Under the pieces are notes generated by a model, which was given only the letters and a program-made list of their open reading frames with translations, had not been told where the DNA came from and did not search any database. A program made the position numbers and the translations under genes. A DNA stretch of 64,000 nucleotides from an uncultured bacterium (GTDB lineage Bacteria > Cyanobacteriota > Vampirovibrionia > Gastranaerophilales > Gastranaerophilaceae), in assembly GCA_949292185.1 (NCBI GenBank), contig CASEYP010000031.1, positions 62,001 to 126,000 of the forward strand, read 5' to 3'. Within the stretch, counting starts at the first letter, position 1. Each line of letters begins with the position of its first letter. Shown here piece by piece: positions 1,341 through 46,411 of the stretch.

Positions 1341-2090
1341 ATGATTACAAAAAATGAATTAGATAATCTTGTTAAAACTTATGAAACAAAAGATTTCATA
1401 AAAGATGATCCTATACAATTCCCGAACAGATTCAAGAACAAAAAAGATATTGAAATTGCAGGATTTATAGCATCACTTGTAGCTTATGGCAGAAGAGAAC
1501 TTTTTATAAAAAAATTAGAAGAATTATTCTCTATTGCTCAAAATGAACCGCTTAATTTTATCCTAAATTTTGAACCAAAACTTATCGGAAATTTTAATTA
1601 TCGTTTTGGCAAGCCTCAAGATTTTTCAATGATTTTTAATATACTAAAAGAGCTATATCAAAAAGATGGCGGATTGGAAGAACTTTTCAAATACGGTTAT
1701 AATAACCAAGTTGAAAATAATATGTTCATCCCTGTTACTGATTATTTTTACGCAAGAGTAAAAGAAAATGCACAACAAGGTTTTTACTTTATGATACCAA
1801 ATCCTAGAAATGGCGGAGCAATGAAGAGGATGTGTATGTTTTTACGCTGGATGGTAAGGAAAGAACCTGTTGATTTTGGTATTTGGAAATTTATGCCAGC
1901 TTCAGACTTACTTATCCCGTTAGATGTTCATGTTGCAAGGATTTCAAGGCAAATGGGATTATTAACCAGAAATGCAAATGATTTTAAAGCAGTTTTGGAA
2001 TTGACAAATAACCTGAAAAAATTTGACTCACAAGATCCGACAAAATATGACTTTGCAATGTTTGGATACGGAGTCAATAATAAAGTCTAG
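1341..2090 (+). CDS. TIGR02757 family protein (DUF2400)
   Basis: A 249-residue protein of the TIGR02757/DUF2400 family, common in Bacteroidetes and other lineages and of unknown function; it resembles helix-hairpin-helix DNA glycosylases in fold. Family blocks visible are LVAYGRRE near residue 50, NPRNGGAMKR..MFLRWMVRK at about 154-175, the LIPLDVHVARISRQMGL block at about 195, and the C-terminal DPTKYDFAMFGYGV. No Shine-Dalgarno precedes the ATG; a -10-like box sits 8 nt upstream. It follows the PAP2-like gene by 23 bases but may have its own promoter. Confidence 0.85.
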   Translation: MITKNELDNLVKTYETKDFIKDDPIQFPNRFKNKKDIEIAGFIASLVAYGRRELFIKKLEELFSIAQNEPLNFILNFEPKLIGNFNYRFGKPQDFSMIFNILKELYQKDGGLEELFKYGYNNQVENNMFIPVTDYFYARVKENAQQGFYFMIPNPRNGGAMKRMCMFLRWMVRKEPVDFGIWKFMPASDLLIPLDVHVARISRQMGLLTRNANDFKAVLELTNNLKKFDSQDPTKYDFAMFGYGVNNKV

Positions 2091-2148
2091 GACAAATACG
2101 TGACATAATATTTATTATTTATATTAAAACAATTATTATCAAAATAAT

Positions 2149-2559
2149 TAGCATCAGTTAATGAAACGATATCAAGCCGAGTTTTGTTTGAGCGAAAGCG
2201 AGTTAACTCGGCTCAGGTTGAATTTTACTGATGCTATTTGGTCAAATAGTTTTTCTTTCTTTGCTTAGTTTCTTTCTTTTTGCTTATCCAAAAAGAAAGA
2301 AATTAAGTGCGGGTTTGGGTACGCATAGTACCCAATATATAAATATGATAATAAGCAAAATTATCAGTACGTCTCCGACGGGTCCTGCCCGGACAGGGGA
2401 AACTTTTGGTGGCAAAAGTTTCACAAAACCAAGCCCCGAACTTCGCTCGTTAATCAAATGTAAAAGCTCAACTTGTGCGTGCATAACTCGCTTTCGCTCA
2501 AACAAATGCACGCTTGTTATTGTTTCGCTTACATTGATTACTCGCTTTCGTTAGGGGCT
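2149..2559. repeat. Mosaic of nested inverted repeats (palindromic element)
   Basis: Perfect inverted arms: 2149-2158 with 2227-2236 (10 bp) enclosing 2175-2183 with 2205-2213 (9 bp); 2269-2281 with 2290-2302 (13 bp, extendable to about 18 with a G-T pair); 2315-2322 with 2328-2335 (8 bp); 2399-2408 with 2413-2422 (10 bp, loop GTGG); 2432-2437 with 2554-2559 (6 bp) enclosing 2477-2484 with 2506-2513 (8 bp). A 20-base segment at 2186-2205 recurs in exact inverse orientation at 2484-2503. The region is visibly richer in G and C than its flanks. It has the look of a dispersed non-coding palindromic element, but no second copy is in this window. Confidence 0.75.
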
Positions 2560-2611
2560 GAGAGTTTTAAATTTTAATTTTTTAATTTTTAATTCAAATA
2601 ATAAATATTAT

Positions 2612-2644
2612 GTAAAATAAAAGGCGATACATGAAATACCGCCT
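2612..2644 (-). terminator. Rho-independent terminator for the GGDEF regulator
   Basis: AGGCG (2622-2626) pairs with CGCCT (2640-2644); read on the minus strand the second arm is followed by TTTATTTTA. It lies about 70 bases past the regulator's stop codon. Confidence 0.55.
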
Positions 2645-2715: not shown

Positions 2716-3588
2716 TTACTCTCCAAGATTTAGGTGAGAGAATTGTACAATTTTATTTTTACCGCGTTTTTTAGCATTGTACAAAGCATGTTCAGCGTAT
2801 CTAATGATAGTATTTGCATCTTCTTCTGTGTCAGGTAGACAAGGGAATGTTGCAATACCACCTGATATTGTAATTGGATGACGTTCTTCCTCACCTGCAG
2901 GAATAAATTCCATTTTTTCAATATCTTTTCTAAATCTTTCTGCAAATAAGAATGCATTATCTTCAGAAGTATTAGGAAGAACTACAATAAATTCTTCATC
3001 ACCATAACGAGTTAAAATATCTTCTTTTCTAATTAATTGTTTCAATTTATCAGCTATAGAACGAAGTAAAACATCTCCCCATTCATAACCATAAATATCA
3101 TTAACAACTTTAAAGAAATCTAAATCAAACAACAACAAAGATAATGGAGTTGTATAACGTTTAGCACGAGAAATTTCTTGTTCCATACGTTCCAACAAAT
3201 ATCTTCTGTTATGTAAACCTGTTAATTCATCAGTTGTAGAAAGAGTTTTCAATTTATCTCTCAACTCTTTAATCTTCAACATATTTCTAACACGAACAAC
3301 CAATTCCTGATTATCAACAGGAGTCTTGATATAATCAAATGCAACTGCTCTAACAGTACAACCTTTAAAAGTTTCACCAATAAATAATATAGGGAACTTA
3401 AATTTTGTAACCATCAAAACATCTTTAATATTAGGAACGCTTTCAATAATAATAACGCCCGGATTTAATGTTTCATAATCTTTAAGATTAGCTGCATTTT
3501 CTAATCTTACATTTGAATCTTCAATAGAAGACACAACATCAGCTATTGCTGAAGAATTTTTATCTGTATATATAACAATATTTTTCAT
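2716..3588 (-). CDS. Response-regulator-like diguanylate cyclase (REC-like + GGDEF)
   Basis: A 290-residue protein. The N-terminal ~115 residues look like a degenerate receiver domain (MKNIVIYTDKN... with VIIIESVP and DYIKTPV, the latter resembling the conserved K-P of receivers). The GGDEF domain runs from about residue 125 (LTGLHNRR) to 280. The active-site signature is GDEEF at 196-200 instead of the usual GG(D/E)EF. An RxxD motif (RKED, 187-190), the usual c-di-GMP inhibitory site, lies five residues before it. Most of the domain is intact (FDLDFFKVVND, ISGGIA, YAKK-like NAKKRGKN). It probably makes c-di-GMP, although the second glycine is replaced. The start has a GAGGATAG ribosome site. 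Confidence 0.85.
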   Translation of the reverse strand: MKNIVIYTDKNSSAIADVVSSIEDSNVRLENAANLKDYETLNPGVIIIESVPNIKDVLMVTKFKFPILFIGETFKGCTVRAVAFDYIKTPVDNQELVVRVRNMLKIKELRDKLKTLSTTDELTGLHNRRYLLERMEQEISRAKRYTTPLSLLLFDLDFFKVVNDIYGYEWGDVLLRSIADKLKQLIRKEDILTRYGDEEFIVVLPNTSEDNAFLFAERFRKDIEKMEFIPAGEEERHPITISGGIATFPCLPDTEEDANTIIRYAEHALYNAKKRGKNKIVQFSHLNLGE

Positions 3589-8334: not shown

Positions 8335-9420
8335 ATGGGAATTATGTCAATTGCCTTAAAAGCATTATCTTATGGAAAAAGAGCACTAAAAGTTGCTCCT
8401 GAATTCTTTTTAGGAGATAGTGCAGAACTCGTTGGTATTGCAATGAGAAAAAAATCCGGCTCAATATTTACCAAAGCAAAAGCCGGAGCAAAAGCATTAG
8501 AAAAAAGTGTTATAAAAAAATCTGCAACTCAAGGTAATTTTGCCAAACGAGTATTAAACAATTTATTTTCAACTCCTAGTACAATAAAACATTTTGCGAA
8601 AATGGAAGCTCAAGCGGCAAAAGCAGCAGGGAAAAGTGCCTTATTAGGAGGTTTGAAAGGTGTCGGCAAGGGCATAGCTAAGAAAATGCCATTTATTGGT
8701 GCTGCAATAACTATCGCAATGGAAGCTCCAAATATCTATAGAGCATTTAAAGATGGAGGTGTCGGTGCCGGATTAAAAGAAATAGGCGGAGCAGCCGTAG
8801 AACTAGGTGGTATGGCAGCCGGTGCCGCAATCGGAACCGCAATATGCCCAGGAATTGGAACTATTATTGGAGGTATTATTGGTGGTATTGCAGGAACCTT
8901 AATCCGAGGTAAAACATTTACTGAAAAACAAGCAGAAGCAAAAGCGCAAGAACAACTTCCACAATATACACCAGAAGATATCGCAAGACTTCAAGAATAT
9001 GGATTCACAATGGAAGAAATTCAAAAAATGCAAGAAAGCGGCTACACTATTGAACAAATAGAAAAAGTAGTTCAAGAAGAAATGGGAAAAACTGATCCTA
9101 ACGAAGATGTAGCCCCAAAAGATAACACCCAAGTTGAAAAACCTGAGATTTCAGAAGTAACTCCAGCTGTAGATCCGGAAAAGAATAATTCAAATAATCC
9201 ATTTTTCAATCCAAATCCAAACTATACAGCTAATATGATGAATCCATTCTCAATGGGAATGAACTCTTATATGAGTGGAATGATGAATCCTTACTCTATG
9301 GGAATGAACACTTATATGAGTGGAATGATGAATCCTTACTCAGGTTCTTTATTCCAAATGAATTATTCAAATCCATTTTCATTCAATCCACAAAACCAAT
9401 ATTTTAGATACACTTGTTAA
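8335..9420 (+). CDS. Glycine-rich membrane-associated protein, paralogue 2, with Met/Asn/Pro repeats
   Basis: A 361-residue protein of unknown function, paralogous to the gene at 7393 over residues ~1-200. The glycine-zipper hydrophobic stretch is longer here (about 145-195: GGAAVELGGMAAGAAIGTAI followed by a GTIIGGIIGGIAGTL segment). Residues ~205-250 form a charged helical pair reminiscent of UBA/EF-Ts-like helices (LQEYGFTMEEIQKMQESGYTIEQIEK). The tail carries a 15-residue tandem repeat (MNPFSMGMNSYMSGM, then MNPYSMGMNTYMSGM, residues 302-331, followed by a third partial copy), encoded by nearly identical 45-base units at 9238-9327. The GAGG ribosome site sits before the ATG. The repetitive tail suggests a surface or assembly role, which is inferred. 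Confidence 0.8.
   Translation: MGIMSIALKALSYGKRALKVAPEFFLGDSAELVGIAMRKKSGSIFTKAKAGAKALEKSVIKKSATQGNFAKRVLNNLFSTPSTIKHFAKMEAQAAKAAGKSALLGGLKGVGKGIAKKMPFIGAAITIAMEAPNIYRAFKDGGVGAGLKEIGGAAVELGGMAAGAAIGTAICPGIGTIIGGIIGGIAGTLIRGKTFTEKQAEAKAQEQLPQYTPEDIARLQEYGFTMEEIQKMQESGYTIEQIEKVVQEEMGKTDPNEDVAPKDNTQVEKPEISEVTPAVDPEKNNSNNPFFNPNPNYTANMMNPFSMGMNSYMSGMMNPYSMGMNTYMSGMMNPYSGSLFQMNYSNPFSFNPQNQYFRYTC
9238..9346 (+). repeat. 45-base tandem repeat inside paralogue 2
   Basis: Units at 9238-9282 and 9283-9327, plus a partial third from 9328, encode 15-residue repeats differing at only two residues (Phe/Tyr and Ser/Thr). Recent in-frame duplication is the simplest explanation. Confidence 0.85.
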
Positions 9421-23041: not shown

Positions 23042-24121
23042 ATGAGTGTTAATGCAACAAAAAATTATTATGAAATATTAGGAGTTTCAACAGATGCAAC
23101 CGCTGCTGAAATAAAATCAGCATACAGAAAACTTGCCAGAAAATATCATCCTGATATCAATAAAAGTCCTGAAGCAATAAACATATTCAAAGACATAACA
23201 GAAGCTTATGAAACACTTTACGATACACAAAAAAGAGAACAATATAATATTTTAAAAGGCTTTTTTAAAAACGAAAAAACAACAACCTCACCAAAAACAG
23301 CCGAAGAAAATTATAAAAATACACAAGCAAAATCTCAAAATTATTCACAAAGTTCAACTCAACAAAACTCAAATAATACAAAAACAAATCAAACAAAAGA
23401 ACCCAAGAAAAACAGAAACTCAATATTTAAAATTTTCAAATATTGGAGTGCAAAATTTAAAAAGAATAAACGAGCAAAAGAAAATACAAAACCTCAAAAA
23501 GGTGAAACAATAACAACAGATGTAACGATTACCCCTGAAGAAGTAATCACTGGCAGCAAAAGAATAATTCACGTCCTAACAACACAAACATGCCCGACCT
23601 GTCACGGACACAGGTTTATAAATGGCGGAAAATGTTCTCATTGTAACGGCTCCGGTGAAATTTCAAAAAGAAAAAAAATCACAGTAACTATTCCAAAAGG
23701 AATAAAAGAAGGTACAAAATTAAGACTTAAAAACGAAGGCGGCTCAGGAAAAAATGGCGGTCCGAACGGTGATTTGTATATAATCATAAAAATTGAAACA
23801 AAAACAAAAATAAATTTTGACAAACTAAATATCTACTATAATGTTCCGATCTCTCCTGTTGAAGCTGCACTTGGAGAAGAAATAAAAATTCCGACTTTTG
23901 ACGGAACAATCAAACTTAAACTTCCGCCAAACACCTCCTCAGGTCAAAAATTCCGTATTGCAAAACAAGGAATAAAAAAGAACGGCAAAATTGGAGATTT
24001 AATAATTACTGTAAGTATTGAATTTTCTCATGATTTGTCAGAAGATGAAATTAAGCTTTATAAAAAGCTCAAAAATTTATCTACGGACGATATGAGAAAG
24101 AACTTGATGAATGAAAACTAA
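23042..24121 (+). CDS. DnaJ-family co-chaperone with a single zinc site
   Basis: 359 residues. J domain at ~8-70 with the HPD tripeptide ([10 protein letters not shown]), a ~75-residue Asn/Gln/Thr/Lys-rich linker with no glycine-rich character, then the C-terminal substrate domains (~160-345). The zinc module is reduced: only two CxxC repeats (CPTCHG and CSHCNG), where canonical DnaJ has four. It should stimulate DnaK and bind clients but may lack the full zinc-finger function. No clear ribosome site precedes the ATG. It overlaps queE by 11 bases, indicating coupling. Confidence 0.85.
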
Positions 24122-46258: not shown

Positions 46259-46411
46259 GTAATAATAATAACATTATATTAAAGCTCTTCTTTTTGTGTA
46301 TCAGTTATTTAATGTATTTCCTATTTAAAAAAGTAACTGTATACCATACATGATGATATCATAATCTCAACTTTTAGGCAAAATTCAACAACTTGTTACA
46401 AATTTTATATA

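Follow-up and report, generated by a model that had tools for sequence, protein, structure and literature searches.

We analysed a 64,000-nucleotide stretch (the window) of the 1.89-Mb draft genome of an uncultured member of the Gastranaerophilales (G000). The segment at 2149–2559 of the window lies between two convergent genes, 1341–2090 (+) and 2716–3588 (−), and contains eight non-overlapping perfect inverted repeats with arms of 6–14 bp, the longest being 2269–2282/2289–2302 with 14-bp arms; another, 2399–2408/2413–2422, has 10-bp arms. Arms of at least 8 bp were found in five of these repeats, against 0.25 expected and a maximum of three in 300 dinucleotide shuffles, and the tile containing this segment is the most palindromic of the whole window. 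The GC content is 39.7%, compared with 31.5% for the window. The RNA fold of 2095–2625 gave a z-score of −12.2, and 0 of 100 shuffled sequences were equally stable. The palindromes are therefore real and far beyond chance, and the density of perfect palindromes, the raised GC content and the position between convergent genes, all pointed out in a preliminary description made from the sequence alone, were borne out.

The extent given in that description, 2149–2559, holds for the palindromes but not for the unit to which they belong, because they form the interior of a larger unit at 2103–2613. This unit is closed by an outer inverted repeat of 27 bp (2103–2129/2587–2613, 93% identity), which is also its boundary as judged from relatives, and it contains an inner inverted repeat of 64 bp (2163–2226/2463–2526, 75% identity); the two enclose or overlap the hairpins listed in the preliminary description. 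The features of the locus are as follows.

1341–2090, plus strand: left neighbour gene, 249 aa, used to locate the orthologous locus
2098–2125, minus strand: left dif-like site, a motif common to the terminal repeats of relatives, with arms assigned by comparison with published dif/pdif sites
2098–2108: outer (XerD-like) arm of the left site, ACGTGACATAA
2109–2114: spacer of the left site, TATTTA
2115–2125: inner (XerC-like) arm of the left site, TTATTTATATT
2103–2613 (511 bp), no strand assigned: whole element, with 27-bp imperfect terminal inverted repeats; boundaries from an inverted copy in the relative G067 and an orthologous copy in the relative G035
2163–2226, no strand assigned: left arm of the inner 64-bp inverted repeat, containing the hairpin 2175–2183/2205–2213
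2248–2307, no strand assigned: TTTCTTTCTTTTTG / CAAAAAGAAAGAAA hairpin module with 14-bp arms; positions 154–213 of the query match several families
2315–2335, no strand assigned: hairpin TTGGGTAC / GTACCCAA, from the scan for perfect inverted repeats
2370–2422, no strand assigned: hairpins GTCTCCGAC, GTCC/GGAC and GAAACTTTTG/CAAAAGTTTC, with compensatory changes in relatives
2463–2526, no strand assigned: right arm of the inner 64-bp inverted repeat, containing the hairpin 2477–2484/2506–2513 and a conserved loop (AACTCGC..GCTCAAACAA)
2591–2618, plus strand: right dif-like site, with the motif common to the terminal repeats of relatives
2591–2601: inner arm of the right site, AATTCAAATAA
2602–2607: spacer of the right site, TAAATA, the reverse complement of the left spacer
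2608–2618: outer arm of the right site, TTATGTAAAAT
2622–2644, minus strand: terminator of the right neighbour gene, lying immediately beyond the element; the only terminator-like site of the region, its position being kept in the relative G010, which lacks the element
2716–3588, minus strand: right neighbour gene, 290 aa, with GGDEF-type motifs read from the sequence, used to locate the orthologous locus

The hairpin module at 2248–2307 is the part of the element most widely common across the order Gastranaerophilales. An ORF of 107 aa at 2231–2554 was considered as a coding sequence and treated as chance, because related copies differ by numerous insertions and deletions as well as compensatory changes. 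In the region that follows the 290-aa gene on its downstream side (about 2645–2690), a 29-nt stretch at 2655–2683, TTTACACTATGTAAGTGTTCAGAAAGGAT, is identical in six genomes (G000, G067, G035, G010, G022 and G001), among which the surrounding sequence varies; it is single copy in the window and is possibly a conserved 3′ UTR element. Elsewhere in the window, 9235–9342 is a tandem repeat with 2.4 copies of a 45-bp unit (92%).

We searched for copies of the element in related genomes, all of which are draft assemblies. Matches were detected in 36 of 59 relatives, and many of them stop at contig ends, the usual sign of an assembly-breaking repeat. An exact 24-mer of the element was present in 12 stretches of a species-genome collection, of which eight bear the title Candidatus Gastranaerophilales and the other four that of Cyanobacteria bacterium (UBA MAGs). 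Plasmid and phage searches gave no relevant match, the sole plasmid match being a 33-bp AT-rich stretch, and a plasmid or phage origin was rejected on this ground. A single copy without conservation had been named beforehand as the outcome that would speak against a repeat; the source genome does hold only one full copy, but the matches in relatives contradict the second half of that statement. In G043, a genome of another family, the copies that could be judged were intergenic and lay between six tandem, four divergent and two convergent gene pairs, convergent pairs not being preferred. At one place in this genome, which has dozens of full elements, two end sites are joined head to head, the interior being absent (L149, contig C53 near 244).

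Comparison of the same locus among siblings revealed occupied and empty states. The element is absent between the same two genes in G010 and G022, present in the same orientation as in G000 in G035, and present at the identical insertion point in G067, where its interior is inverted relative to G000. The left flank in G067, GTCTAGGACAAATACGTG, is identical to that of G000, but the element next to it starts with its right end (ACATAATATTTATTATTTGAATTAAAA...); its left end adjoins the right flank. Because both junction contigs extend 99 bp into the element, these junctions are independent of any joining across the repeat. Therefore, either the interior changed orientation at one insertion point or, less likely, two insertions took place at the same base in opposite directions. 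The exchange must fall within about ACATAATATTTATTATTT, a common stretch of approximately 18 bp, and the spacers are identical at this locus, which provides the single clear same-locus inversion among the loci compared, with a putative mechanism discussed below.

Further near-identical copies in G067 (97–99% identity) occupy other loci. At the position of the first, G000 and G010 have no element and G035 retains a degenerate remnant; the G000 position matching the second is without the element, but its flanks have diverged. These observations show that the element multiplied recently in G067. Taken with the matches in relatives, they identify the region 2103–2613 as a dispersed palindromic element of Gastranaerophilales without coding content, and we are highly confident that it is mobile; the preliminary description had raised both readings, the non-coding repeat in dispersed copies and the mobile element of palindromes, among its possibilities.

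To characterize the ends, terminal inverted repeats around the copies in relatives were searched without any motif requirement. Most of the long terminal repeats found contain NTAA-N6-TTAN. In a control with shuffled flanks, none of 192 best repeats reached a score of 14, and the loose motif appeared in three of 192. Across the genus, the terminal repeats consist of fixed arms around a variable 6-bp spacer, TTACATAA-N6-TTATCSGWAT, in inverted orientation, and both this layout and the arms appear to be those of Xer (dif/pdif) sites. The end strings of 17 elements were tabulated from the motif-free repeat search and the G067 site comparison. Spacers were the same at both ends in 15 of these elements and differed by one base in two, an agreement that is partly built in, as complementarity was the criterion by which the repeats were picked; the information lies in the fixed arms, the unchanging length of the spacer and the variety of spacers between elements. 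The XerD-like arm (TTATGTAA) lies outside in 12 of the 17 (C-internal) and inside in the other five (D-internal).

A pattern of both arms with a free spacer (ACATAANNNNNNTTATCSGWAT) gave 50 matches in 46 genomes of the genus, at least two of which sit in a conserved gene and not in elements, against none for the reversed pattern, and 13 different spacers occurred among the 50. The strict arm pattern was matched in only nine of the 46 genomes, the ends in the source genome being a looser version of it. In the source genome, a strict dif-like pattern matched nowhere but at the right end, TTATGTAAAAT, a match that is illustrative only, that pattern having been written after this end was seen. In G043, about 95 sites of the form GACCGATAA-TATTTT-TTATGTAA were found, with a nearly invariant 23-bp core (the 23-mer is exact in 63 of 91 distinct sites read). 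The outer arms of these sites fall into two classes, and each interior end mainly adjoins one class and sometimes the other (14 to 2; 10 to 5). This mixture fits recombination at the end site, though biased, but could instead mean that copies inserted, in one direction or the other, into a pre-existing palindromic repeat. One subfamily, in G008, is without the dif-like motif and has other ends (GTCAAGCAATTAGTTACATA). Its copies L070, L072 and L073 share the same interior modules and have quite different terminal repeats, which suggests that interiors and ends are exchangeable. Overall, the element ends are probably of Xer type.

Two Xer-like recombinases, of 292 aa and 304 aa, are encoded in G000, and the pattern searches did not identify the chromosomal dif of the host. 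A dif-like site, ATAA-TATATA-TTATGT, occurs on contig C26 of G000 near 23854 (L211; orthologues L220, L341, L343 and L340), its 18-nt invariant run being the longest in the gene alignment. It is not claimed as the chromosomal dif, since it lies inside a conserved gene and the encoded peptide HNIYY is itself conserved; it could be a coincidence of codon use or a dif overlapping the gene. A tyrosine recombinase of 179 aa was considered as the invertase of the element and rejected, as its neighbourhood is without the ends of the element. Its gene, on contig C19 of G000 near 46305, is preceded by two pairs of short inverted repeats (L305, 1018–1076 and 1229–1389), and this locus has the appearance of an invertible switch that carries its own invertase; G067 encodes several recombinases of about this size.

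We then analysed the interior stems. In an alignment of 21 copies of 2370–2546, double changes were found in 17 of 26 stem pairs, and 96.5% of the pairing cells were able to pair, compared with 76% after shuffling and 37–47% when the alignment was slid. All eight stem pairs of the hairpin 2477–2484/2506–2513 covary in relatives. In the two main helices, the 378 cells comprise 372 Watson–Crick pairs, 0 G-U pairs and six mismatches. RNA stems that covary this strongly are expected to pass through G-U pairs. The absence of such pairs from these Watson–Crick stems with paired changes therefore suggests that the stems are kept at the DNA level, and it seems that selection acted on folded DNA, that one arm served to correct the other, or that both took place. 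Under DNA parameters, the interiors of 14 elements folded 3.6 to 12 SD better than shuffled interiors. The end sites also pair in the DNA fold of these 14 elements, an observation that is not discriminating, as shuffled interiors give the same pairing.

We consider it rather likely, though less so than mobility itself, that the unit is a gene-free (non-autonomous) mobile palindromic element, both ends of which are Xer-type sites (arm, 6-bp spacer, arm) that share one spacer and are inversely oriented. Against the Xer part of this reading stand the pattern searches that yielded no dif, the ends of the G008 subfamily, the finding of only one clear same-locus inversion, the hypothetical nature of the movement of a module with inverted sites, and the draft state of all assemblies.

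The best surviving alternative, which we regard as unlikely, is an ordinary MITE, derived from an insertion sequence by shortening and mobilized in trans by a transposase of the classical DDE type, with AT-rich ends that are dif-like by accident. Bacterial MITEs, small mobile repeats (PMC2229807), are likewise short, non-coding, bounded by terminal inverted repeats and dispersed between genes, and the recent activity of the element agrees with such an origin. In contrast to MITEs, the element has dif-like ends, and a spacer that varies in sequence but not in length, between fixed arms, is not expected of transposase ends. Target-site duplication was absent from the window locus and from the first G067 site; at the second G067 site and at the ndk site it could not be judged, because the flanks diverge. 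Moreover, among the copies read, there was no longer, gene-bearing version with the same ends that could serve as a transposase-bearing parent.

Still less probable is a family that is mobile by whatever means, with ends unrelated to Xer, in which the G067 inversion arose because hairpins drove template switching or because the inverted repeats recombined homologously. Short inverted repeats can also flip the sequence between them via template switching during replication or via homologous recombination, long hairpins are prone to such events, and the stems look as if one arm had been corrected from the other, with no G-U pairs. However, the common exchange region is only about 18 bp, and the dif-like arms are found again in elements that differ in spacer and interior.

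A structured non-coding RNA, as also raised in the preliminary description, or a bidirectional terminator between the convergent genes would account for the strong fold and the strong covariation, and the compensatory changes that the description had taken as a sign of RNA were indeed found. Their pattern, practically without G-U pairs, points to DNA palindromes instead. In addition, no Rfam match reached the gathering score in the window, the locus is empty in close relatives, the only terminator-like site of the region falls outside the element, and the G043 copies occur in every gene arrangement. We conclude that the element is neither an RNA nor a terminator, an explanation to which we assign very little probability. 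An assembly chimera, which the breaking of draft contigs at repeats might bring to mind, is refuted for practical purposes by the 318-kb contig that runs through the single-copy element in the source genome and by the independently assembled G035 and G067, occupied at the same locus with the same neighbours.

Returning to the Xer-type reading, the proposed link comes from the sequence of the end sites and from one inversion. Host XerC/XerD, for which the two Xer-like genes are candidates, may act on the end sites, and recombination between the two inverted, spacer-matched ends would flip the interior. Spread may proceed via a single-stranded form, in which the element would fold into a forked hairpin; in the folded strand, both end sites would pair into one duplex dif-like site, which XerC could then exchange with a target, as for CTX-phi at dif. 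This single-strand route, drawn by analogy, is tentative.

Known systems offer several points of comparison. In Acinetobacter, dif modules are stretches of DNA bounded by sites of opposite orientation and come in C-internal and D-internal types, and inversions between sites with like spacers have been detected experimentally; a single module cannot excise alone, because its sites are inverted, and the relocation of modules is still argued (PMC13141974). Published Acinetobacter sites are ACTTCACATAA-GAAATT-TTATGTTAAAT and AATTAACATAA-TACACC-TTATACGAAAT (PMC12907356), and Vibrio cholerae dif1 is AGTGCGTATTA-TGTATG-TTATGTTAAAT (PMC3089051); the arms of the element resemble both the Acinetobacter and the Vibrio sites. 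Like these modules, also termed pdif modules, of plasmids and chromosomes (PMC13141974, PMC12907356), the element has two inversely oriented 28-bp sites of apparent Xer type, each consisting of arm, 6-bp spacer and arm, with XerC/XerD-like arms as far as sequence can tell. The arms are alike (AATTAACATAA-N6-TTATACGAAAT in Acinetobacter and TTACATAA-N6-TTATCSGWAT here), and variable spacers and the C-internal and D-internal types are common to both. Inversion between like-spacer sites, known from Acinetobacter, may have a counterpart in the one same-locus inversion (G000 against G067), and a module without a predicted ORF has also been described in Acinetobacter. Unlike those modules, the element is isolated, gene-free and filled with nested hairpins, and occurs in many copies between chromosomal genes of another phylum. 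Alternating arrays of C and D modules that share sites were absent from the copies examined, in which both types occur as single elements. Because such arrays are absent and Xer action is deduced from the sites, we report the element as dif-module-like: by end layout this family appears nearest, and the element may work like a member of it.

In CTX-phi, inversely oriented dif-like sites can integrate nonetheless: the genome, as a single strand, forms a forked hairpin in which they pair, and one pair of strands is exchanged by XerC (PMC3089051). An element of nested hairpins flanked by such sites would suit this scheme. The element resembles its attP(+) in having two opposite dif-like sites that could pair at the stem of a forked hairpin (PMC3089051, PMC5357621); CTX-phi, however, is a phage genome of several kb that inserts at dif, whereas the element is 511 bp, geneless and found in many non-dif places. 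REP/BIME palindromes are extragenic, as is the element, but REPs measure 20–40 bp and have a GTAG or CGTC tag (PMC3733652), and a 511-bp multi-hairpin unit with 27-bp terminal repeats is not of this kind.

A benefit to the host is not evident, and the element is most likely selfish DNA tolerated between genes. It might, although we hold this with some doubt, represent a new class of selfish DNA, made of geneless nested DNA hairpins and two inverted dif-like sites, which would spread as folded single-stranded DNA via XerC/XerD and flip at its ends. The family explains the repeats that break many draft assemblies of Gastranaerophilales. With chromosomal copies by the dozen, no genes, this end layout and both C and D types, it would provide a clean natural system for the question of module relocation in a different phylum. 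If the proposed reading is true, bacterial MITE-like repeats would be linked to Xer recombination, and hairpin DNA as a transposition intermediate would become directly testable.
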